Shown here in pieces: positions 419 through 11,878 of a stretch of 45,618 bases of DNA. Within the stretch, counting starts at the first letter, position 1; each line of letters begins with the position of its first letter. The stretch comes from Prevotella sp. (lineage in GTDB: Bacteria; Bacteroidota; Bacteroidia; Bacteroidales; Bacteroidaceae). The position numbers and the translations under genes are program-made. The stretch covers positions 1-45,618 of the forward strand of contig JAFWSS010000164.1 in NCBI GenBank assembly GCA_017524385.1, written 5' to 3'. Below the pieces are notes generated by a model. The model searched no databases, was not told where the DNA came from, and worked only from the letters and a program-made list of their open reading frames with translations.

Positions 419-661
419 TCACTTCCTTGCGTACCCCGTTGGAGAACTCCCAAAGGGAGTTGCATACCTGGAAAGGACTGACAAACCCGGAATCATCCGA
501 CCACAGCTTTGAGGAGGGATGGGAAAGCCATGACGTCCCTCGTCCACATGGTCGCCGATATTGAGGCCATAGAACTTCATGCCTTTCTTTTTCTCCTCGT
601 CAATCATCTCCATCGTCTCCTTGTTGACAAGCAGTGGATGGCGGAAGGAAAAGCCTGTCAT
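419..661 (-). CDS. Small hypothetical protein overlapping the AAA ATPase stop
   Basis: An 80-codon frame whose ATG overlaps the TGA of the upstream AAA ATPase gene (ATGA), an arrangement typical of translational coupling. The first 40 residues look protein-like (charged, with MIDEEKKKGMKFYGLNIGD). The last third translates a palindromic intergenic sequence (AACTCCCAAAGGGAGTT near 447-463), so the gene may be truncated and reading into junk. I recognise no family. It could be a real small partner of the ATPase, a decayed gene tail, or chance. Confidence 0.3.
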   Translation of the reverse strand: MTGFSFRHPLLVNKETMEMIDEEKKKGMKFYGLNIGDHVDEGRHGFPIPPQSCGRMIPGLSVLSRYATPFGSSPTGYARK

Positions 662-2379
662 CGAAAACCGATGACAGACTCTGCATTATTACTCCTGCCC
701 ATGACCTCCGCCTTGCAGTACCCCTCAATATCCTCTATCGACGTTTGCTTTCCCGACAGTATGAAGCCTATCGTGCGCTTGCGTGCAATGTTCTCAATCT
801 GTCCGCCTGAGAAGTTGTAACTCATAGCCAACCGACGTGCATCCTCCTCGGTAATGCCTTGCAGCATGGAGCTCCACAACTGTTGCTTCACCGACACCCC
901 GGGCATATGGAACTCCACCTTGAAGAGGAACCTCCGCTCGAAAGCGTTGTCGAGGTTGGACGTGAGGTTGGTAGTGGCAATGAGAATGCCTTCCAAGTCC
1001 TCCAACTCCTGCAGGATAATGTTCTGCATGGCGTTGTCCATCTTGTCCACCGACGTCTCCACGTTCTCATTGCGTTTGCTGAAAAGCGCATCGGCCTCGT
1101 TGAAGAAGAGAATGGGCATCACCTCGCTACGCTTGCATGCCTCACGGTAACGCTCGAACACCATCTTTATGTTCTTCTCGCTCTCCCCCACGTATTTGTC
1201 GCGCATGCCAGCAATGTCCACCTGCATAATGTCGCGACCCGTAAGTCGTGCTATCTGCAGCACAGTCTCCGTCTTACCCGTGCCCGGAGCACCGTAGAAG
1301 AGGCAGGCGAACCCTTTGCGCATACCCTGTTCCTCCAACCTCTGCTGTATGTCGGGAAGTCTTTCCTGACTTAGCAGGCTTGTCAGACGCTCTATCTGCT
1401 GTTGTTCTACCATGTTGTAGAACATGGCCTTCTCCTTAATGAGCGTGTGTCGTGTCAAACCTTGCAAAGACAGGTTGTTGGCATTCCTCAGCCCATTGGG
1501 GGTGAAACCGTCGAGCAGTTCTTCCTTGCATCGACGCGTTATGACGTAACAGTTTGTGTTTGCCAAGCCACCCTCGAAAGCATGTCCTATCCAACCCTCA
1601 CTGAACAACATATGCCGACCTTGTTGAAGCGCATCTTTCATGGCGTCGACATAATAGCTGTCGCGGAACACCTCATCTATAGTGGAAAGCTGAAGACCTT
1701 CTGTCTCCGTCCCTCCCCATTCGGCATAATTGCAGACCATCATCATGAAAAGCAGAAGGTCGTCCTGGTTGCTTTTTAATTTGAGCGCCTCGGTGCACAA
1801 CGGCAAATGGGTGTTGGCCTCACACATCATGAGCATCCATTTCGCATCGTCACACACCCTCGAGTTCAGGCTTATGACATTTTTGTTGACATACTTCACC
1901 ATCTTGTTAACAAATGTTCCGAGTTCCAGACCGTCTATTTTCTCTGGTACAAACGGTTTGTTCTCCTGTAGTGCATTCACCAGCCCATCGGCCACACGGA
2001 AACTGTCAAAGAAGGTTCCGCACTCGTTAACATTGTTGCGTATGACCCAACGCCTAGCCACCAACTCCTCTATCTCGTTGGAATAGCTCATAATGGAAAG
2101 ACGGCTGCACCTTAGGCATTTGGCAAAACCTTTCCATGTCAAAGCCTCGCCGCATTCCACAAGTATCGCAAACACTACCACCTGCATCCTTGTCATTTCC
2201 AGCTCCTTCGTCAAGTATTCCAATGGGTTCTTGCAATCATTCCAGAACTTTTTCGAGAGGTTAGAGCCAATTGCCTCGTTCAACACCCTGTCAAGGGCGG
2301 AAATGAGGGTCCATGTCTCTGGTTCTTCGTACTCTTCGTTGTAATCGGGGGCAATGTAATCAAAATCTTCGTCAAACAT
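658..2379 (-). CDS. AAA+ ATPase with large unknown N-terminal region
   Basis: About 573 residues. The C-terminal third is a classical AAA+ domain (numbering from the longest frame, which is 19 codons longer): Walker A GAPGTGKT at 382-389, Walker B PILFFNEAD at 441-449 with Asn in place of the usual first Asp, sensor-1 TTN near 488-490, arginine finger in FERRF at 499-503 and a sensor-2-like SGGQIENI at 543-550. The domain resembles the FtsH/katanin-like ATPases found in bacterial accessory cassettes. The N-terminal 370 residues hold helical segments and match no family I recognise. I chose the ATG at 2379 because the only upstream in-frame start is a TTG (2436). The gene is on the same strand as the kinase/peptidase cassette upstream but is separated from it by a plus-strand fragment. 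Probable role: remodelling a protein partner by ATP hydrolysis. Confidence 0.8.
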   Translation of the reverse strand: MFDEDFDYIAPDYNEEYEEPETWTLISALDRVLNEAIGSNLSKKFWNDCKNPLEYLTKELEMTRMQVVVFAILVECGEALTWKGFAKCLRCSRLSIMSYSNEIEELVARRWVIRNNVNECGTFFDSFRVADGLVNALQENKPFVPEKIDGLELGTFVNKMVKYVNKNVISLNSRVCDDAKWMLMMCEANTHLPLCTEALKLKSNQDDLLLFMMMVCNYAEWGGTETEGLQLSTIDEVFRDSYYVDAMKDALQQGRHMLFSEGWIGHAFEGGLANTNCYVITRRCKEELLDGFTPNGLRNANNLSLQGLTRHTLIKEKAMFYNMVEQQQIERLTSLLSQERLPDIQQRLEEQGMRKGFACLFYGAPGTGKTETVLQIARLTGRDIMQVDIAGMRDKYVGESEKNIKMVFERYREACKRSEVMPILFFNEADALFSKRNENVETSVDKMDNAMQNIILQELEDLEGILIATTNLTSNLDNAFERRFLFKVEFHMPGVSVKQQLWSSMLQGITEEDARRLAMSYNFSGGQIENIARKRTIGFILSGKQTSIEDIEGYCKAEVMGRSNNAESVIGFR

Positions 2380-2455
2380 CCTTTTCTGTTTATGTGAATA
2401 TGGTATATTTATAATTTGAATTCGCTCTTTTTTCAAGAGTTCATGAGGAGGCTAA

Positions 2456-2471
2456 GAGGAGTTCACTCCTC
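2456..2471. repeat. Hairpin upstream of the AAA gene, similar to 392-427
   Basis: GAGGAGT (2456-2462) pairs with ACTCCTC (2465-2471). It is followed by ATTTCACCTACTTGC, close to the ATTTCACTTCCTTGC that follows the hairpin at 392-415. The AAA gene is therefore bracketed by two same-orientation hairpin-plus-ATTTCAC sequences. Confidence 0.4.
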
Positions 2472-2512
2472 ATTTCACCTACTTGCAAAAGTTGATGGCA
2501 TATATTATTGAT

Positions 2513-3004
2513 ATGAAAAAAGAGTCATTCGATGATGCGCCGAAAGCAAGATTCCATATGATCAACCTGGTAACAGTTCAAGGCTATCAAGGGGTGTATC
2601 AAAAAATCAAAGAACGATTGATTTGTGATGCAAAGGTAGGTCTAAAATTTGATACAGGTGGTTTTTTTATAGGTATAACATCATCTTTCGCAAAAAGAAG
2701 AATATCATTCCTCACTTTTTTGTGCTGCTTATTACCGATTGTGCAATCCCTGTCCTGTGACCAACAGGAAAGAAGCGTTAGGTCTTCATTTGTAGCTGTC
2801 ATCACCGAGGATGAGGAGATAGACATACACACCTTCTGCGGTGGCATTGAACTATTCGTACCCACCCATGTCAACGTGCTGGTGAAAAGCCGCAGTTTCA
2901 TCGGCGGTGTCGGCAACAGTGCCATACACAACACCGACCCGAAAACCCCATGCCTGCACATTGTCGCCAGCAACTTCATCGGCGGTGTGGATATCAAGAA
3001 TTAA
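2513..3004 (+). pseudogene. LiaF-type C-terminal domain remnant
   Basis: The last 65 residues of this plus-strand frame show the alternating beta pattern of the LiaF/DUF2154 C-terminal domain: an HTFCGGIELFVP segment, then VLVKSRSFIGGVG, then LHIVASNFIGGVDIKN at the very end. In Bacteroidetes this domain usually ends a membrane protein with N-terminal transmembrane helices. Here those helices are absent, and the upstream half does not look like the family (it includes one hydrophobic stretch, ISFLTFLCCLLPIVQSL). I therefore read it as a truncated gene whose 5' part was lost or replaced. It is oriented against both neighbours and interrupts the minus-strand cassette. The start is arbitrary (ATG at 2513; 2495 is also possible). 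A short secreted beta-helix-like protein beginning before the hydrophobic stretch remains possible. Confidence 0.45.
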
Positions 3005-3065
3005 ACCTGGGGCCAATTAATGAGCTTCTCCCCCAATGCAAGTGAACATGGATTTTGACGACTTG

Positions 3066-5075
3066 TCATATTTCATGGTTCAACAGTTCTGTTTGAAGTA
3101 TGGAGACCTCCTTTCCTTGTTTTACATCTATTAAAATGTATTTAATTCTATGCGACAAATTAACATCACAAAGGATTTTCAAAGACTTGGGGGTGTAGCC
3201 GAACAATTCCTGAACATCTATCTTGAAACGTTTTCCAAGAAAAACTATGACAATGGAAGAACAATTATCATCCTTTATAGGATAAGTCTTCTTGAATGGT
3301 ATGGTTGTCATGCTTTCCATCAAGTTGAGAGCATCCCTATAAGAACCATTAATCCATATTTCTGCATTGATATCAAAAGGAAACATGGAGAGCAAAACGG
3401 TTTCGTCTGTTAGATAGTGATTAAAGATGTTATATTGGATGATTGCTCCCAACACCAAAGATGCAAACCCTTCAAACGCAGACAATTTTTTGACAACAGG
3501 CTCATTTTCCACGAAAACCCACTCTGCAAAATTGTTTTTCCTCTCACCTATAAAGCCTGACTGGTATATCTCTGCAACACTCCCTCCTTGCAACACGTCA
3601 CAATATTGGCATTGATATTCAAAGCTATAAGCGCAATCCTCGTTTGCATCAAAACAAAGTGGAATCAACTGCATTTCCATCTCTATGCGATAGTCGCCAA
3701 AGACAGAAGGACTTTGTTGCAAACGGAAGATTTCGAAAAGGTCGGATTCGCTGCAAAAGGTAATCATATTGAAAGCATGGGCTATCGTGTCTCTGTTGCC
3801 ATTCAAATATGTTACCAAATCTGTCCGCCGACCATCTTTCACACGAAGGGAAGCCTTGAAAAGTCTCATGGAGGATTCCACATCACTGAATGACCTTAGT
3901 TTCGACACGAGGTCTACATCACATTCATAGGTGTAACCCCTGTAATATATGGTGACGCCATGACCATGTGAAATAGAAATAACAGAAATGCCATATTGCT
4001 CGATCTCTTCACGACTATAGGAATACAATTTCCCCATCGCTTCCCCAACAAAAGACTCATCGCCCATATCAATGGAGGTTTCTTCCTCCTTCACTCCGCT
4101 GAAGAATCCATCAATCTTCACCTCTGTGGTCTCATCCAGAATCGTCGCACTGGAGTTTTCGTCCTCCCGCTTTTCACCAGAGGATTTCCCAAGAAACCTC
4201 AATATCTCCTCCACCGACTGAGGGCGGCCGTTTTGGTTGGGGGTCATCATCCAGACGACGAGTTGGCGCATACGAGGGCTCACCGAAGGAGGCAACGGGA
4301 TGGAATCGCTCTTGTCTGGCGTGGAGTCGTTGTTGATGGCAGAAGGGTTTGCCGGCTTCTTACCAGTGAGAAGGTTGAACAGCGTTGCACCAAGGGCGTA
4401 GAAGTCTGTCCAAGGCCCCATGTCTGCCCTGATGCCCGCCAGTTGTTCGATGGGTGCGTAACCGGGAGTGTAGGCAATGGATGTGGAAGACGACTTCTCT
4501 TCGTCGTAGGTGGAGACATATTTGCTAGCACCAAAGTCGACCAGCACCGTCCTGTTTCCATAACCCAGCATGATGTTGGCAGGTTTGATGTCAAGATGGC
4601 AGAGCTGCGGTCTTTGGTTATGGATGCAATTGAGGGCATCAAGCATCTGTTCAAGGATTTCCATCACCATACTCTCGTTGAAAGGCCTTCCCGACAGGTT
4701 GAGCAGGTCGGCGAGGTTCTTGCCATCGATGAAGTCCATCACATAGTAGGCAGTGCCGTTCTCCTCGAACAGGTCATAAACCTGCACAATGTGAGGATTG
4801 GAGAGTTGGGCCAACCGACGGGCCTCGTCAAGGAACCTTTTCTTTTGTTTCATAAAAAACTCACGGTTGCTCCTCAACACGAAAACCGACTTCTCGTCAT
4901 CTTCACGGTCGCAGACACCGTTCAAAAAGCACTCCTTCAAGACCACGCGCTTGCCAAGGAGCACCTGCTCACCTTCGTAGGTGATACCGAAACCACCCTG
5001 GCCCAATTTCTTGCGGATTACGTATTTTATTCCTTGCAGCGTGGTGCCTTCCTTCAAAAAAGTATTTTGTGACAT
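3066..5075 (-). CDS. Ser/Thr protein kinase with long C-terminal extension
   Basis: 669 residues. Residues 15-295 form a eukaryotic-like kinase domain: glycine loop GQGGFG (25-30), VVLKE with Lys47 as the probable ATP-anchoring lysine, catalytic loop HLDIKPANIM (160-169, with Asp162 and Lys164; the HRD arginine is Leu), DFG at 180-182 and the APE-like YAPIEQ (206-211). Leu in place of Arg is common in bacterial kinases lacking activation-loop control. A low-complexity linker (300-345) leads to about 320 residues without a clear family. The last 100 residues show spacing like an Hsp70 substrate-binding beta domain (TIPFKKT near 587, then an IDVKQGKE segment near 650). There is no transmembrane segment, so it should be cytoplasmic. 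It starts 78 nt after the peptidase gene and is probably co-transcribed. Likely role: phosphorylating cassette partners. Confidence 0.88.
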   Translation of the reverse strand: MSQNTFLKEGTTLQGIKYVIRKKLGQGGFGITYEGEQVLLGKRVVLKECFLNGVCDREDDEKSVFVLRSNREFFMKQKKRFLDEARRLAQLSNPHIVQVYDLFEENGTAYYVMDFIDGKNLADLLNLSGRPFNESMVMEILEQMLDALNCIHNQRPQLCHLDIKPANIMLGYGNRTVLVDFGASKYVSTYDEEKSSSTSIAYTPGYAPIEQLAGIRADMGPWTDFYALGATLFNLLTGKKPANPSAINNDSTPDKSDSIPLPPSVSPRMRQLVVWMMTPNQNGRPQSVEEILRFLGKSSGEKREDENSSATILDETTEVKIDGFFSGVKEEETSIDMGDESFVGEAMGKLYSYSREEIEQYGISVISISHGHGVTIYYRGYTYECDVDLVSKLRSFSDVESSMRLFKASLRVKDGRRTDLVTYLNGNRDTIAHAFNMITFCSESDLFEIFRLQQSPSVFGDYRIEMEMQLIPLCFDANEDCAYSFEYQCQYCDVLQGGSVAEIYQSGFIGERKNNFAEWVFVENEPVVKKLSAFEGFASLVLGAIIQYNIFNHYLTDETVLLSMFPFDINAEIWINGSYRDALNLMESMTTIPFKKTYPIKDDNCSSIVIVFLGKRFKIDVQELFGYTPKSLKILCDVNLSHRIKYILIDVKQGKEVSILQTELLNHEI

Positions 5076-5153
5076 GACGTTTTTCAGATGTTGCTAATGA
5101 CTCTATTCATCGAATAACTATAAAACATACAATACCTGGATGTGTCAAACGGG

Positions 5154-6983
5154 TTATTTGGCTTGAATGGCATCAAGCAGCCGGCCGTTTTCATCAAGAC
5201 GAGCCCTGATTTGTGAACGGATGACACCCTCCTGTTTGCCATAGTTGTAGAGATATCCTTTCTCAGGGTGGCCTTCAGCATCGGTGGTCTCGAAATGCTC
5301 CACACTGTATAGGTCGCGGGGCTCCACACCCAGTTGTTGGTAGAGTTGTTTGGTGATGGTGTCATGGATCATGCGCAGATTGCCATCCACCCTGCCACGC
5401 ACCTCTTCGAGTAACGACTTCGTGCCACCGTTCTCTTTCTGAGACCTCATCACCACCGTGCGCTTCATCTTGCGGAAGGGAATGCAATGATGTTTCGAAC
5501 CATCATCTTCCTGTATATGGGCGATGGCGTTGACATCAGGCACGGTCCGTAGTTTCGGGTTTCCATAGAGGTTGAACATGAGCACCGTGCCCAAGGTCAG
5601 TTCATCCTCCTCTATCTGGCGGCTAGAATTATAGTAGTCGCACTTGGCCTTCAGAAAAGCCTCGCCAGCAGTCATCGTACCCAAACATTCATATTCGGCG
5701 AAACGAGCCATGAATGTCTCGCTGTAGGCGGCAGGGTTGATGCGCCATGTACTGTCGCTCTGGAATTTCTGGCATTTACCCCATGCCGGCACACAAGCAC
5801 CGCTATAGAGTAGCACTCCCCTGCCATGCATGGCAGAGAGCAACATGCTCTGCTCACGGCTGTATCTGATGTATCTCCCACCCCAGCAAGCCACAGTATT
5901 GAAGATGCGGGCATTGCTTTCCTGCAACATGTCGATGCTGAAAGCCAGGTCACTGCTGTAGAATCCTGAATAATCGGGGTGGCAGGTTCCATGGAGGTTG
6001 AACATCAGCATGTCGGCCTCCGACAGTTTTTCGTAGTACATCTCACTGAGTTCCTCTGCCATGTCCTCCATGATCAAAGGGCTGAGAAACATATTGTCGA
6101 GCACCACATGGTCTTCGTTGTCCATATGCTCGGTGGGCAGGTTGCGCGACATCTCTCGGCTGGCGGGTATCCAGTCGTAGAAGGAGGTCATCACGGCTCG
6201 CCCTATCTTGATGCCACCCTCCTCGGTGACCATGTTGCTGAGATTGAAATAGGCCTGCAAGTCTTCCTCCAAGGATGTCTCCATCTCGCCTGTTTCCAAA
6301 GGCAGACGGGCCACATTGCATCGCGCCTTCCTGAAATCGAGAAAGTCGAGTTGCAACCGCCCATAGAAGCAATAGTAGAAGTCGGCATAGACATGGTCCT
6401 GGTAATTGTCGTCATACCATTCCGACCCTTCATAGCATGGGTTGGCCTCCGCGGGCTGTGGAATCACGTCGTTGCCGCCGATGATGAACAGCGAGAGATG
6501 CGGGCCGGGGGTGATGTCCTTGTCGGAGATATACTTCTGCAACACGTCGCTGTAGTCCATCCACGTGGCTTCTCCCAATTCGTGCTGGCGGCTGGCCATG
6601 TCGAGCAGATGCCATTCCACTCCCAACTCCTCGTTGTCGGAGATGAATTTCATCAGCAGCGCTTCTACTTCGTCGCAACTGGTGCCATATTTTCGTGCCA
6701 ATTCTGACGTGTCGGTCCAGATGATGCCCTCATCTGTCCTGCTGTCATCCCAATGATTTGGTTTATCCGCATCATTATATGAAGAGGCACCCTCTTTCAA
6801 CTTGCTTCCGCAGTTGGGGCAGAAGTTCGTGCCCGCATCCACTTTCGTCCCACATTCCGGACAATAATTCAACTCTCTCCCTCCTGACGTATGGCGTTCT
6901 TGTTGGGAGTTACTCAACCCAAATTGCGACAATTGGTCGTCTAGTTCAGATTGTAACCTGTTAAGTTGCTCGTCTATGTCCAT
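5154..6983 (-). CDS. Zinc-ribbon protein with C25/gingipain-like cysteine peptidase domain
   Basis: 609 residues. A zinc ribbon (Cys41, 44, 55, 58) follows a short coiled N-terminus. Residues 155-480 follow the layout of caspase-fold C25 peptidases: a LSLFIIGGNDVIPQP strand (163-177), an ARCNVARLPLETGE segment (220-233) like the family's 'VGRLP.E', a candidate catalytic His331 in FNLHGT, a candidate catalytic Cys366 in NTVACWGGR, and a closing FNLYGNPKLR (470-479) like the 'GDP.L' end of C25 domains. There is no signal peptide, unlike secreted gingipains, so it should act in the cytoplasm. The C-terminal 120 residues are unassigned. Its position between two zinc-ribbon coiled-coil genes and a kinase suggests a regulated effector or processing protease. 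An inactive caspase-like fold is possible, but the His/Cys pair argues for activity. Confidence 0.72.
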   Translation of the reverse strand: MDIDEQLNRLQSELDDQLSQFGLSNSQQERHTSGGRELNYCPECGTKVDAGTNFCPNCGSKLKEGASSYNDADKPNHWDDSRTDEGIIWTDTSELARKYGTSCDEVEALLMKFISDNEELGVEWHLLDMASRQHELGEATWMDYSDVLQKYISDKDITPGPHLSLFIIGGNDVIPQPAEANPCYEGSEWYDDNYQDHVYADFYYCFYGRLQLDFLDFRKARCNVARLPLETGEMETSLEEDLQAYFNLSNMVTEEGGIKIGRAVMTSFYDWIPASREMSRNLPTEHMDNEDHVVLDNMFLSPLIMEDMAEELSEMYYEKLSEADMLMFNLHGTCHPDYSGFYSSDLAFSIDMLQESNARIFNTVACWGGRYIRYSREQSMLLSAMHGRGVLLYSGACVPAWGKCQKFQSDSTWRINPAAYSETFMARFAEYECLGTMTAGEAFLKAKCDYYNSSRQIEEDELTLGTVLMFNLYGNPKLRTVPDVNAIAHIQEDDGSKHHCIPFRKMKRTVVMRSQKENGGTKSLLEEVRGRVDGNLRMIHDTITKQLYQQLGVEPRDLYSVEHFETTDAEGHPEKGYLYNYGKQEGVIRSQIRARLDENGRLLDAIQAK

Positions 6984-7281
6984 AATTTGCTTTATTTAGT
7001 AAAAGAAAAAGAACTTGGTATTATTATAACATATAATTACCATACAATTAATCATAAATTGCTGTGCGTCAGAATTTTTGGTTAATTCATGATAATTCGT
7101 GTTCTTTATTATTCATCCCAGTTTATTTTTTAATCGTCACTTATTTTGTAACATTATCGTCTTTTATTCCTATGTTGTAGTCGAACGCTCTACTTAAAGA
7201 AAACACATCTGCTTTTTCTTGTCATTCGAGATGAAGTAAGCAACGGGATCAGTGAAAGAAACAATTGTAGGCATTCTGTGA
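6984..7281. other. 298-nt gap inside the cassette
   Basis: A/T-rich spacer between the 524-aa and 609-aa genes. I see no TAnnTTTG box on the minus strand here. It contains an inverted copy of the ACACGAATTATC motif also found at 193-212. A short minus-strand frame at 7190-7375 overlaps the upstream gene end and looks spurious. Confidence 0.5.
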
Positions 7282-8856
7282 TTAGAAAAATAATTTCAAT
7301 ATCAACCCAATAATCCAAATGATAAAATGGAATGGTAATGTAATGTACCAGAAAAAGGAATATAGAAAACCCCAAAAACCTCCAAACCTTTCATGAGCAT
7401 AAAAATAGAAAATCAATCCTCCTACGGCCAACATGACAACGAATCCTATGATTTGAGAAATCAGCTCACCTTTCTGCTTATCACTTTCCTCACCATCTTT
7501 TTCTTTATTTTCAGACTCGCTCTCAGCCTTTTGCCGAGACTCTGCCCTTTTGAGAGCCTCTGCCTTCTTGCGAGCTTCTGCTTTCTTGCGAGCTTCTGCT
7601 TTCTTGCGAGCTTCTGCCTTTTGACGTGCTTCTTCCTCCGCCCTCTGACGTGCTTCTTCCTCCGCCTTCTTACGTGCTTCCTCCTCCGCCTTCTTACGTG
7701 CTTCCTCAACCCTCTTCCGTGTCTCTTCTTCGACTCTCTTCCGGGCCTCTTCTTCGACTCTCTTCCGTGCTTCTTCCTCTGCCCTCTTTCTAAGCTCCCT
7801 TTCTGCCTTTTGCCGTGCTTCCTCCTCGGCTTTCTTACGTGCATCCCTTTCAATCTTGACCATTGGATCCACTTGTCCGAAGAAGTTAAAGAGGAAGAAG
7901 GCACAATCCTGCTCGGTGGCACCCATTTCCTTGGCCACCTCAGGCTCCAACAACAAGAAAACCGTATCGGCGAATCGCTGCAAGACCGGAGAATAATCAC
8001 CTGTCACATTATTTAAATATTCAAGCGCCTCGTCTTTTCCATTCTTGACGAGCGAACCAGCAGCAGCGAGCAGTTTGATGTTGTCTTCAGGATACTGGGG
8101 AAACTTGTCACCCAGAGAATATAACACCTCGGATGCCTCAACAGGTTTTTCCGCTTTCAAATAAGCCAAATAACTCCAGAACGACATCCAATAATTATCG
8201 ACCTTCGACATCTCGAATCTCTCGATGCACTTCTTGTGGTTCAAGGCGGCCAATACCAAATAGTATTTGTATTGCAATTCGTCATTAGCGAATTTCCCTG
8301 CCAGCACCCCTATACTGTCCAACTGCTGCATGATGGCCTCAACATCGTTCTTTTTCAAAGCATCATTCAACCGCTTCAGTTTGATTTTCCCAATATCAGT
8401 CAACTCGGTTTTCAATGGCCTGCGCAAAGTCATCTGTCGCACCTGCTCCAAAAGGCTGTCGGCGGTCGCCTCATCAAGTCCCAAATCAAGACGAAGCCTG
8501 TCCAACTCCATCTTTTCCGATGGTTCCAGCACATTGTCTTCATAGGCACGCTTGCAAGCATTGAGATAACGTGTCTTGCGCTCCTGCAGCATCTCCATCT
8601 CCGTCCTCTGAACAGCAACATTGGTGATGTTGTTGACCGTGGAACTGGTGTTTGAGATATTGTGCACACTATGGTCTTCATTGTGCACGTCATGGCTGTC
8701 GGCCATATGGACCTCGCCATTGAAGGCGTTGGCGTCGCCAATGTTCAGGGACGCGCTTGTGTCTTGTTGACGTGGTGATTCCTCGACAAGAGCAACACCA
8801 CATTCGGGACAAAACTTTTCGTTATGATATTGTTTGTTGCACTTTGGACAAATCAT
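7282..8856 (-). CDS. Zinc-ribbon, coiled-coil, tail-anchored membrane protein
   Basis: 524 residues. An N-terminal zinc ribbon (Cys3, 6, 16, 19) is followed by a low-complexity His/Asn stretch (30-80), a helical domain (about 85-145, ERKTRYLNACKRAYEDNVLE...) and a helical, possibly TPR-like region (150-340). A highly charged coiled coil of repeated ARKKAEEE-type units occupies about 345-450. The end is hydrophobic: one transmembrane helix at about 467-487 and another at 500-522. There is no signal peptide, so the N-terminus is probably cytoplasmic with a C-terminal anchor. The charged repeats are also tandem repeats in the DNA. I do not recognise the family. Its zinc ribbon matches in kind those of the two flanking genes, suggesting a shared complex or shared mode of recruitment. 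Confidence 0.75.
   Translation of the reverse strand: MICPKCNKQYHNEKFCPECGVALVEESPRQQDTSASLNIGDANAFNGEVHMADSHDVHNEDHSVHNISNTSSTVNNITNVAVQRTEMEMLQERKTRYLNACKRAYEDNVLEPSEKMELDRLRLDLGLDEATADSLLEQVRQMTLRRPLKTELTDIGKIKLKRLNDALKKNDVEAIMQQLDSIGVLAGKFANDELQYKYYLVLAALNHKKCIERFEMSKVDNYWMSFWSYLAYLKAEKPVEASEVLYSLGDKFPQYPEDNIKLLAAAGSLVKNGKDEALEYLNNVTGDYSPVLQRFADTVFLLLEPEVAKEMGATEQDCAFFLFNFFGQVDPMVKIERDARKKAEEEARQKAERELRKRAEEEARKRVEEEARKRVEEETRKRVEEARKKAEEEARKKAEEEARQRAEEEARQKAEARKKAEARKKAEARKKAEALKRAESRQKAESESENKEKDGEESDKQKGELISQIIGFVVMLAVGGLIFYFYAHERFGGFWGFLYSFFWYITLPFHFIIWIIGLILKLFF
7561..7712. repeat. Tandem 18-nt and 24-nt coding repeats
   Basis: About three copies of an 18-nt unit (TTGCGAGCTTCTGCTTTC on the plus strand, 7561-7620) followed by about four copies of a 24-nt unit built on ACGTGCTTC-TTCCTCCGCC (7621-7712). 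They encode the Ala/Lys/Glu/Arg coiled coil of the 524-aa protein. All unit lengths are multiples of three, so copy-number change would lengthen the rod without breaking the frame. Confidence 0.75.
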
Positions 8857-9031
8857 GATTATGCTATGGTTTTATGGGTTATTGGCTCCCGTCTCCGCGC
8901 CATTTGTAGCACTAAACATTCTTGGCAACGGGCGCACACAAATCCCGACCCTACAGACGCAATGTTTGTTGCTATGAACATTCTTTGCTTCTTATGGCCA
9001 GAGAACCGAATGATCTGTTTATTAATCCATC

Positions 9032-11794
9032 CTATAGTTTGCTGCTACACTCCGGGCAGTATAAATCGTCGTCTGAGATTTCTGAACCACAACTGGGACA
9101 GAAGCGGTGGTTTCCAGAGGCAGGCTCTGTGGGATTTACAGGCTGAGGCTCTGGTTGCTGACCCTGCGGTGGATAGGGTTGTTGCTGAGGTGCTTGCTGT
9201 ACGCCTTGCGGTGCGCCACCCATGGCCTGTGCGGCACTCAGTGAGTCGGCCTGATGGGCACGGGTGGTGTAGTTGAGGGCTTGGTCCATCGTATGGTCCA
9301 TACGGTCTTGCTGTCGTTGGGCATCCTCACGATACTCATCGGCACGTTGCTGCTGCATGGCTTGTTGGGCACTACCGACAGAAATGGCAGTATCTCTGAC
9401 CATCCCAGCCATATCCTTCGCAAAATCCATAAGGTCTGCCTTTTCCTTGGCAGCAGCTTTTTCTCTTTCCTCCGCCGCCTTGCGATCCCTTTCCGCCTGC
9501 TGCTTGAGCAACTCATTCTCACCATCCTTGCTATAAGCATTGGCCATCGCCACCTGGGCATCCCCTGCAAGATGGTCCAACTGTGCTGCACGGATTTGTT
9601 CTGCTGTCATATTGGCAAAGAGGTTGTCGCGTTTGGTTTCTCTCTGAACGTCCATACCGTGGAGCGCCTCTTCTGAGCGGTTCTGCTCTTGGCGGTCACG
9701 GAATTCTGCATCCTTCATGGCCTGCATGTTGCGCTGGGCAATGGCGGCTTTGCGTGCCAAGACCTCCACATCGTCGAATTTGTCCTGCCGTTGACGGTCG
9801 TATTCCGTCTGTGCGTTCTCACGACGCACCTGCTCCTCACGCTGGCGCTGCTGCCACTCGGCCTCTCGCCGACGCTCCTCTTGCTGCCAGGCATGGTCTT
9901 CCTCACGGATGCGACGCTGCCACACATATTCATCCTGCTGCTGGGCACGGTTGAACATACGGTTGTACTCCTGCTCCTCATGCATCCACGCACGCTCGCG
10001 CTCTTCATCCTCGATACCCCAGTTGCGGCGGCGCTGCAAGTCCTCACGCTCCCAGTCGTGGTCTTGCTTCTGGTCGCCGAGTGCCCATTGTGCCTTCAGC
10101 CGTGCGTCTTCAATGCTTTGTTGGTGCTGGATGCGCATGATCTCCGTCAACGAAATGCGCTCAATCTTTTTGTGGAGAAGAGCGTCTTCCAATGCAGCCA
10201 TCTCGTCCTCCTTCACCAACCGATTCTTCTTGAGGTCGAGGAGTGCCTCGTATACCTCTTCCTGGCTCTTGGCCTGACGAAGGCGCTTCTGAGCACTGAG
10301 CATCAGCACAAACTCCTCCATCTCGTCTTCATGCAAGAGTCTGTCTTGGTTGATCTGCTGAAGGGTGTAGCGCAAATCCTCATCGCTGACGGCCTTGTCG
10401 ATCTCCTGTTTGTTGGTCTCGATAGCCAGGCGGTTGCGGAATTCTCCCGTGCGCTGCAAGTAACCCAGTTCACGTTCCGTGCAATACAGTTCACGCTCCA
10501 CCTGGCGGAAACGCTCGAAGTCGGCAGACTGGTCGGTGATTTGCAGGATGCGGATGCACTGGATGCCCTGCATCTGCTCGTTGATCATATTTTGAATACG
10601 GATGCGCATGTTGCTGACAATCGGCAGGGGAAGGCCTTCCTGCTGATAGTCAAGATTGCGGAGCATCTGACGGAGAAGGGCCTGGATGGAAGGCATCAGC
10701 ATCTGTTGAATCTGATTGGTGGTCACGCTGTCGCTGTCGGCCAGGTAATTGGCAAGAAACAGGTTGATGTTCGTGATTTGCATCTGCAAGGAAACGGCGA
10801 TGTCAACATCAAGAATTTTAGTCTCCACTGTGAAAGGAGCGAAATCGATGCCTCCTTCCGGATTCTTCTTCCCACCAAAGGTAAGCGTTATCAAACGATC
10901 ACTCACCAAATACACACGAACGAGTTTTGCCTGGTTGTTTTCTCTCAAGATACGCTCCACCCGCTCCTGACGCGCGCGTCTCTTCTGCTCTGTCTCACCT
11001 TTCTTGTTGCCAAAGAAGAAGCGGCGGATGGTGCTCAGTGCGATGCCGATGGTGCCGAATAGGCCACGGTCCATGAAAGACTCTCCCTGTCGCTGACGAC
11101 GCTCCTCGTAATCCAACTGCTGCTCGGCGGCTTCTCGCTCCGCCATTCTCTCTGCCTCTGTTTTCGCATAGAACGTATAGGCTCCCCCGGAAAGCATTCC
11201 TACCAAATTGCCATCTAAATAAACAATGGCAGAACAGCCTTCCTGGATGATGACGCCTCTCATCTCCTCAATCTCGTAGAACTCGCTTTCAGTCACCCGA
11301 CGGGCAATCTGACCCGGCTGGATGCTCCATATGGCTCGTCCGCGCACCACGTCGATGCCATCGATGGCCTCTTGGTTGCGTCGGTCACGCACTCGTTCGG
11401 CATCACGCTCGGCCTGCTCTGCAGCATCGCGTGCTTGTTGGTTCTGCTCATTCTGCCTCTGGCTTTCCAATGCCTGCTGTTGCTCATTAGCAATTTCACG
11501 GTTGAGAGCACCTCCTGTAATGGCATTGGCCACCGCACGCACACCATTGGTGAACCATCCTTTCTCACCCGGCTGCCCCTGCTGCTGAGAAGGCACACTC
11601 ACTGGTGTCCCACACTTTGTGCAGAACTTCTGGCCTGGTTTCAATTCAGCTCCACATCCGGTACATTTCACAACAGTGGTCGGCTGCTTGGTAGCTGACG
11701 AAGGCTGTGGATTATTCACACTCACTGGTGTCCCACACTTTGTGCAGAACTTCTGGCCTGGTTTCAATTCGGCTCCACATTTAGAACATTTCAT
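9032..11794 (-). CDS. Triple zinc-ribbon, SPFH-like, coiled-coil protein
   Basis: 920 residues. Two nearly identical zinc ribbons open the protein (Cys3/6/17/20 and Cys44/47/58/61) and a third closes it (Cys899/902/913/916). Residues 150-425 resemble the SPFH/'virion core protein'-like family: a GRAIWSIQPGQ strand near 152, EGCSAIVYLDGNLVGML near 185-201, and a VDIAVSLQMQITNINLF strand near 330-346 before a helical segment. Residues 425-800 are a long charged coiled coil with Trp/Arg/Gln/Glu repeats. A Pro/Gln-rich linker (about 855-890) precedes the last ribbon. There is no signal peptide or clear transmembrane helix. SPFH proteins oligomerise into membrane-associated rings, so a scaffold role is plausible. 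This is the first gene after the promoter at 11,871-11,878. Confidence 0.78.
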   Translation of the reverse strand: MKCSKCGAELKPGQKFCTKCGTPVSVNNPQPSSATKQPTTVVKCTGCGAELKPGQKFCTKCGTPVSVPSQQQGQPGEKGWFTNGVRAVANAITGGALNREIANEQQQALESQRQNEQNQQARDAAEQAERDAERVRDRRNQEAIDGIDVVRGRAIWSIQPGQIARRVTESEFYEIEEMRGVIIQEGCSAIVYLDGNLVGMLSGGAYTFYAKTEAERMAEREAAEQQLDYEERRQRQGESFMDRGLFGTIGIALSTIRRFFFGNKKGETEQKRRARQERVERILRENNQAKLVRVYLVSDRLITLTFGGKKNPEGGIDFAPFTVETKILDVDIAVSLQMQITNINLFLANYLADSDSVTTNQIQQMLMPSIQALLRQMLRNLDYQQEGLPLPIVSNMRIRIQNMINEQMQGIQCIRILQITDQSADFERFRQVERELYCTERELGYLQRTGEFRNRLAIETNKQEIDKAVSDEDLRYTLQQINQDRLLHEDEMEEFVLMLSAQKRLRQAKSQEEVYEALLDLKKNRLVKEDEMAALEDALLHKKIERISLTEIMRIQHQQSIEDARLKAQWALGDQKQDHDWEREDLQRRRNWGIEDEERERAWMHEEQEYNRMFNRAQQQDEYVWQRRIREEDHAWQQEERRREAEWQQRQREEQVRRENAQTEYDRQRQDKFDDVEVLARKAAIAQRNMQAMKDAEFRDRQEQNRSEEALHGMDVQRETKRDNLFANMTAEQIRAAQLDHLAGDAQVAMANAYSKDGENELLKQQAERDRKAAEEREKAAAKEKADLMDFAKDMAGMVRDTAISVGSAQQAMQQQRADEYREDAQRQQDRMDHTMDQALNYTTRAHQADSLSAAQAMGGAPQGVQQAPQQQPYPPQGQQPEPQPVNPTEPASGNHRFCPSCGSEISDDDLYCPECSSKL
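11594..11780. repeat. 64-bp direct duplication encoding twin zinc ribbons
   Basis: Positions 594-657 and 717-780 of the 11-kb block (11594-11657, 11717-11780) are nearly identical, with one mismatch seen, at a spacing of 123 nt (41 codons). They encode the first two CxxC...CxxC ribbons of the 920-aa protein. Near-identity at DNA level points to a recent in-frame duplication or ongoing gene conversion. Confidence 0.85.
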
Positions 11795-11870
11795 AGTATA
11801 TATGTTTTTACAATATTACTGAGGTAAAGACTCACAATGGCTTGTTTTCAAAGCACACTTTATCAAAATG

Positions 11871-11878
11871 CAAAGATA
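11871..11878 (-). promoter_or_regulatory. -7 box for the zinc-ribbon/kinase cassette
   Basis: CAAAGATA on the plus strand reads TATCTTTG on the minus strand, a perfect TAnnTTTG, 77 nt upstream of the 920-aa gene. No equally good box was seen before the next three minus-strand genes, so this may drive all of them. Confidence 0.6.

Follow-up and report, generated by a model that had tools for sequence, protein, structure and literature searches.

Results and Discussion

Gene content and organization of the locus

The window analysed here (the whole 45,618-nt stretch of Prevotella sp. DNA) contains five large open reading frames (ORFs) on the minus strand, each so long that random codons would stay free of stops over its length with a probability of only about 1e-11 or lower. 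The ORFs lie where a preliminary description of this DNA, based on the sequence alone, had placed them. The genes and features are as follows:

658..2436, minus strand: AAA ATPase (P0005), 592 aa; a neighbour, judged to lie outside the module
2483-3004, mainly 2800-3004, plus strand: LiaF-like (cell-wall-active antibiotic response) remnant (Pfam)
3066..5075, minus strand: Ser/Thr protein kinase (P0004), 669 aa; an optional neighbour, not part of the core
5154..6983, minus strand: zinc-ribbon peptidase of family C25 (P0003), 609 aa
7282..8856, minus strand: adaptor (P0002), 524 aa
9032..11794, minus strand: SPFH-domain protein (P0001), 920 aa
11871..11878, minus strand: TATCTTTG, presumed Bacteroidetes-type -7 promoter motif, 76 nt upstream of the SPFH start codon
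11891-12310, minus strand: transposase fragment just upstream of the SPFH gene (DDE_5, E 0.007; IS701, E 0.002; both below the cut-off)

The intergenic gaps, in the order from the SPFH gene to the AAA gene, are 175, 298, 78 and 629 nt. The last of these, between the kinase and AAA genes, holds a TACCTTTG motif of its own (2638-2631) as well as the end of the LiaF-like remnant gene, which runs on the other strand (LiaF-like_C, E 9.5e-5, below the cut-off). This remnant, together with the transposase fragment before the SPFH gene, indicates that the five genes do not form one tidy operon; the order and common strand given in the preliminary description were confirmed, whereas transcription as a single unit is uncertain in view of the gaps. 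The good promoter reported there corresponds to TATCTTTG, which we take to be of the Bacteroidetes type, and its standing is tempered by the unclear enrichment of TANNTTTG in the window (28 copies versus 20.9 ± 4.8, with 28 or more in eight of 100 shuffles). An inverted repeat with 23-nt arms (96% complementary) and a 7-nt loop lies at positions 89-141, beyond the 3' end of the AAA gene, and a dispersed 42-nt inverted repeat (74%) has copies at 184-225 and at 7073-7114, the latter falling in the 298 nt that separate the adaptor gene from the protease gene.

Architecture of the SPFH, C25 and adaptor proteins

CxxC zinc ribbons were identified in three of the proteins, as previously noted: sequence inspection and Pfam place three in P0001 and a single one in both P0002 and P0003. 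Structure comparison confirmed the SPFH and C25 assignments, which had been guesses in the preliminary description. P0001 consists of two N-terminal zinc ribbons, an SPFH domain (residues ~147-424), a long coiled coil, a disordered linker and a C-terminal zinc ribbon, and both the SPFH/Band 7 fold and the coiled coil following it were recovered by structure comparison. A hydrophobic N-terminus was detected in none of 50 SPFH rows (simple hydropathy rule, with the most favourable early Met). An inner hydrophobic stretch, absent from the window protein, was found by a crude scan in 23 of the 50 rows, suggesting that some SPFH proteins may hold the membrane themselves.

The peptidase P0003 has one N-terminal zinc ribbon and the C25 catalytic fold (structure comparison), with a predicted catalytic dyad of His331 and Cys366. 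The His331-Gly and Cys366-x-Gly signatures were invariant in 50 of 50 C25 rows (the window, 47 loci and the second copies of two loci; L174 and L175 were left out). The PF01364 score of the window protein (20.9 bits) is below the cut-off of 23, whereas the copy at L022 scores above it (27.1 bits), and 31 of 43 C25 members match this model at E 0.01 or better. A search of PDB sequences with the C25 profile retrieved no gingipain chain; the sole match was a zinc-finger protein, obtained through the ribbon. The simple hydropathy rule identified no hydrophobic N-terminus, and hence no signal peptide of the kind carried by type IX secretion cargo, in any of 48 C25 rows.

The adaptor P0002 comprises an N-terminal zinc ribbon scoring below the Pfam cut-off, an Asn/Ser/Thr-rich stretch, a helical domain, a coiled coil and two C-terminal hydrophobic segments. 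None of 45 adaptor rows has a hydrophobic N-terminus by the same rule.

Conserved association of the SPFH, adaptor and C25 genes

A three-row SPFH profile was scanned against 84,980 species, each represented by a single genome, and the best 80 of the 258 confirmed stretches were used. These included 48 SPFH relatives, all of which were counted, and 32 stretches (L110-L141) matching the ribbons only (approximately the first 60-96 residues), which were left out. A C25 gene was present beside 47 of the 48 SPFH relatives among these best 80 of 258 stretches, on the same strand in all 47 cases, and lay more than 300 nt from the SPFH gene only in L067, L101 and L102. At the single locus lacking this gene, L104 from Treponemataceae, the sequence ends at the SPFH gene; the Treponema relatives L099 and L103 have an SPFH gene followed by a C25 gene. 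L069 and L098 are query-profile loci found again, giving 45 of 46 new loci with C25; the query loci other than the window had themselves been found through their C25 gene, so the sample may favour C25-linked relatives. Adaptor relatives scoring above 30 bits, fused ones included, were present at 44 of the 48 loci.

P0003 had matches in 14 of 393 genomes from the order, over most of its length in the window, G146 and G113 and over a ribbon-sized stretch in the rest; in both near full-length relatives, the C25 gene is followed by SPFH and ribbon-adaptor genes. Separate profiles for the two proteins, run against the 393 genomes, identified C25 in three and SPFH beyond the ribbons in the same three, all of which had supplied profile rows, and 14 further genomes were matched by the SPFH profile only within its first 80 positions. 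The SPFH sequence, searched against 60 genomes mostly of the same genus, gave four weak matches of ribbon size besides the window. A phylum-wide three-row C25 profile matched 44 of 395 genomes, and among the matches listed only those in the window's own genome (G000) and G677 (40 bits) extended over the catalytic part, all remaining rows being confined to the first 86 positions.

Carriage by viruses or plasmids was considered and rejected: P0003 had no match in either the viral_contigs or the plasmids set, and the SPFH profile found four loci in viral_contigs, at the ribbon end only (residues 3-117 or less).

The similarities of the SPFH and C25 proteins were strongly correlated (r = 0.94, equalled in 0 of 2000 permutations) over 44 rows (43 loci and the window, after the removal of two second copies and truncated rows), a value inflated by the existence of two deep clades and by shared host history. 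Genes for the SPFH protein, zinc-ribbon adaptor and zinc-ribbon C25 peptidase thus occur side by side throughout Bacteroidales, and a small number of records from other phyla show the same grouping. The preliminary description had envisaged an SPFH/ribbon platform to which the ribbon protease is recruited; as an association this is well supported, by the 47 of 48 loci, the parallel divergence and the fusions described below. That description had also asked whether homologues of the five genes lie scattered singly. The SPFH, C25 and adaptor genes are linked at the loci examined, although the window's own genome encodes another relative of the adaptor in isolation, whereas the AAA gene is scattered and the kinase gene largely so.

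Two gene layouts

Most Bacteroidales loci have the same gene order (layout I): transglycosylase, C25, SPFH, adaptor, LpoB/CsgG-like, DUF6175, LPP20 and small LPP20-like genes. Across the 48 loci, the transglycosylase was counted 26 times, the LpoB/CsgG-like gene 29, DUF6175 31, and LPP20 and the small LPP20-like gene 29 times each, with absences that include contigs ending early. LpoB scored above the cut-off in three of the four LpoB/CsgG-like members scanned, the fourth having no Pfam match. By the simple hydropathy rule, hydrophobic N-termini were frequent in the partners encoded by this envelope operon (transglycosylase 19/26, LpoB/CsgG-like 25/29, DUF6175 30/31, LPP20 27/29, small LPP20-like 29/30 rows).

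The second arrangement (layout II), comprising the window, L062-L068 and L175, formed one clade of nine in both the C25 and the SPFH trees (100/100; 47 rows each). No layout I envelope genes were found at these nine loci. Their neighbours, the counts of which are lower bounds because several loci are cut by contig ends, include a second SPFH protein at five of the nine (L062, L063, L064, L066 and L175; that of L062 has Band_7_1 and GYF_2 domains in Pfam), PDDEXK_4 proteins at L062, L066 and L068, and an Ion_trans protein at L067, with a gene of similar appearance, lacking a Pfam match, identified by eye at L066. The window C25 grouped with that of L067 (100/100), whereas the window SPFH grouped with those of L062, L064 and the loci with adaptor-C25 fusions (95/95) and the SPFH of L067 paired with that of L068 (99/98), indicating an exchange of parts between cassettes.

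L174 (G1037, same genus) is a distant variant in which C25 and SPFH genes are followed by genes for two proteins that have, as judged by eye, CxxC motifs and an Asn-rich stretch; both of these contain Sel1/TPR repeats, one also contains WG repeats, and a HipA-like gene adjoins.

Membrane segments of the adaptor and its fusion to the protease

Most layout I adaptors have one predicted membrane helix and the window adaptor has two, both C-terminal, whereas a hydropathy scan revealed none in the layout II adaptors of L062, L064, L067 and L068. The tail anchor proposed in the preliminary description thus fits P0002, but not what was seen in these four relatives. The solitary adaptor relative in the window's own genome (L169, 2425-4257, C110; 476 bits to P0002) has a C-terminal half made of MORN repeats, suggesting that the ribbon, Asn-rich and helical parts constitute a reusable module.

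At L063, L065, L066 and L175, the adaptor and the protease are fused in genes encoding approximately 920-980 aa, in which the adaptor stretch and helical domain precede a C25 domain that lacks its ribbon. The fused proteins formed one clade in the C25 tree (99/95), indicating one fusion event rather than four. The C25 ribbon is present in 44 of 50 C25 rows; those without it are the fusions L063, L065 and L066, together with L073, L081 and L094, which start at a contig end. The loss of the ribbon on fusion suggests that its job may be to bind the adaptor.

Kinase and AAA ATPase genes

P0004 has a Pkinase domain (126 bits, Pfam), and the motifs GQGGFG, Lys47, HLDIKPAN and DFG are all intact, so the protein looks like an active kinase. 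Its best solved relative is PpkA, a likeness that indicates a Ser/Thr kinase and nothing more. The window's own genome gave 32 match rows to P0004, including P0004 itself, of which 31 lay in the kinase domain and some shared one gene; one Ser/Thr kinase family is strongly expanded in this genome. A kinase gene was present at three of the nine layout II loci (the window, L063 and L068), within 1 kb upstream of the SPFH gene in the latter two, the kinases of which are shorter than P0004 and contain a hydrophobic segment, a different architecture. The kinase was rejected as a fixed component on these three grounds: its presence at three of nine loci, the differing architectures and the expansion of the family.

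P0005 has an AAA domain (85 bits) with the Walker A motif GAPGTGKT. No peptidase domain was detected in it with Pfam, and FtsH models matched the ATPase part only, far below the cut-off. One paralogue at 71% identity and two at 36% are encoded elsewhere in the same genome, with no recognisable module genes nearby (by eye; C25 and SPFH were each matched just once in this genome). An AAA relative was found at one of the 48 SPFH loci, on the opposite strand. Given these paralogues, this single occurrence and the remnant gene separating the kinase from the AAA gene, the AAA protein was rejected as a component. The proposal in the preliminary description that the AAA ATPase belongs to the cassette thus fell, and that of the kinase and ATPase as fixed controls was largely refuted for the ATPase and reduced to an optional neighbour for the kinase.

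A proposed membrane-associated proteolysis module

The neighbouring genes of this gut bacterium for a stomatin-family SPFH scaffold, a zinc-ribbon adaptor and a caspase-like protease, which recur as a group in many bacterial genomes, suggest an undescribed membrane-tethered proteolysis device. We estimate at about 0.5 the probability that these three core proteins work as a membrane-associated proteolysis module, in which the SPFH/adaptor platform would dock and gate the C25 protease. The SPFH protein would assemble into a ring or dome at the inner membrane, and the adaptor would tether the complex to that membrane. The protease would dock through its zinc ribbon or, at the four fusion loci, would be joined directly to the adaptor. 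While docked, the protease may be restrained or aimed; once damage to the membrane or envelope perturbs the platform, the protease would cut a substrate in the cytosol or close to the membrane. The layout I partners suggest that the signal originates in the envelope: in this layout, it would come from the periplasm through the LpoB/CsgG-like, DUF6175 and LPP20-like proteins and a lytic transglycosylase encoded alongside them. At the layout II loci, the periplasmic part is absent and the neighbours are cytosolic or inner-membrane proteins, including the kinase in the window. The AAA ATPase would be a bystander.

Alternative interpretations

An anti-phage or other conflict system, as which the cassette was viewed in the preliminary description, is a possible alternative with the odds against it. 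The SPFH/adaptor platform would sense invasion at the membrane and free the caspase-like executor, and the kinase, PD-(D/E)XK and ion-channel-like neighbours would act as alternative effectors. Three features favour that view: the sparse presence of the module, found in four of 299 genomes of the genus (including the window's own and the distant variant L174) and in three of 393 of the order, the window's counted; its variable sites, only 24 of the 595 pairs that 35 loci can form having a flanking gene family in common, some of these being pairs of near-identical loci (34 of the 48 loci and the window, with several flanks shorter than 6 kb); and the changing layout II neighbours. Separase and CHAT proteases are also among the fold neighbours of the C25 protein (structure comparison). 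PADLOC models were matched by the kinase and the AAA protein (mad6, PD-T4-6; IetA) and, weakly, by the adaptor coiled coil (LeoBC), but the kinase and AAA matches cover general domains, and P0005 scores 91.6 against a cut-off of 510 for the NCBIfam anti-phage ATPase. None of 43 C25 members matched any model in PADLOC-DB 2.0.0, the window SPFH protein had no PADLOC match, and the nature of layout I as an envelope operon also argues against a conflict system.

A bolder and rather unlikely reading is a bacterial inflammasome-like device, in which a dome of SPFH proteins, offering zinc ribbons as docking sites, would hold a gingipain/separase-type executor protease at the membrane, and breakdown of the membrane or envelope would release it to cut a specific target, possibly killing the infected or damaged cell. 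Loss of integrity might then, just as tentatively, be reported by periplasmic lipoproteins in one layout and by kinases or other partners in the other.

We consider it unlikely that the C25 protease constitutively trims the SPFH protein or membrane proteins, as housekeeping quality control or SPFH maturation. There is a precedent, in that the NfeD-type protease PH1510 is reported to cut the C-terminus of the stomatin PH1511 encoded in the same operon (PMC13086221). A conserved peptide, RMDxxxDxALNYTTR, occupies residues 831-845 of P0001, at the end of the coiled coil and before the disordered linker. The pattern [AS]L[DN]Y[TSA]TR was found in 29 of 49 SPFH rows (two stricter patterns in 21 of 51 rows each), and its status as a candidate cleavage site of the C25 protease is only an idea. 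Its absence from the other 20 rows, three of which (L091, L094 and L104) are cut at contig ends and which include five of the seven layout II relatives counted, argues against maturation, and the sparse presence of the module speaks against housekeeping. Finally, it is highly improbable that all five genes form one system constantly controlled by phosphorylation through the kinase and remodelling through the AAA protein: the gene order in the window and the kinases close to the SPFH genes of L063 and L068 favour such a system, but the rarity, orientation and paralogues of the AAA gene, the intervening remnant and the inconstant kinase, from an expanded family, count against it.

Comparison with known systems

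The roles of SPFH proteins, which are common as membrane scaffolds, are poorly understood, and to our knowledge few bacterial protease partners of these proteins have been described. No description of an SPFH-C25 pair was found among the literature matches listed (titles, starts of abstracts and passages, from a collection with subscription journals mostly outside it). The words zinc, caspase and peptidase are absent from the text of a paper on prokaryotic SPFH proteins (PMC2636767), a word count for one on prokaryotic caspase homologues (PMC3501461) gave zero mentions of SPFH, and the sole paper found to combine SPFH, caspase-like and zinc ribbon (PMC7159879) has SPFH in the title of a reference only. 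The NTP-dependent conflict systems of that last paper resemble the window in that their multi-gene cassettes combine a protease of the caspase superfamily with zinc ribbons and kinases, but differ in their vWA, STAND or GTPase hub, no match to which was obtained with Pfam for the five proteins encoded here. The vWA and MoxR components of the vWA-MoxR ternary conflict system were likewise not found among these five proteins, the AAA_5 match (E 0.03) lying below the cut-off.

In passages of two papers on the Bacillus subtilis PspA-YdjGHI system (PMC8581546, PMC9239133), the soluble SPFH protein YdjI is brought to the membrane by the operon-encoded YdjG/H, YdjG has a zinc ribbon, and the system is linked to stress. 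The likeness to the window module lies in a soluble SPFH protein with membrane partners, one of which carries a zinc ribbon. The partner of YdjGHI is PspA and, in those passages, the operon is described without a protease; they mention no ribbon for YdjI, and the word zinc is absent from PMC8581546.

The proposed module resembles HflK/C-FtsH and prohibitin-type complexes in combining an SPFH assembly with a protease at the membrane, and the SPFH fold is the same (structure comparison). Those complexes are not known to have zinc ribbons or an adaptor, and the window protease is a gingipain-type cysteine peptidase rather than an AAA metalloprotease; no linked AAA metalloprotease was found beside the module, the only adjoining AAA protein being P0005, without a peptidase domain. 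A conserved SPFH-C25 pair would extend SPFH biology by a second class of protease, and the small operons in named Bacteroidales strains, such as Butyricimonas synergistica and Mediterranea massiliensis with layout I, would make the purpose of the SPFH platform testable by deletion. P0003 shares its catalytic fold and His/Cys dyad with the C25 gingipains RgpB and Kgp and with PorU. Gingipains reach the cell surface via the type IX secretion system (PMC7712824), whereas the window-type C25 peptidases have no signal peptide, carry an N-terminal zinc ribbon and are encoded with an SPFH protein; a conserved pair would give family C25 a cytosolic branch.
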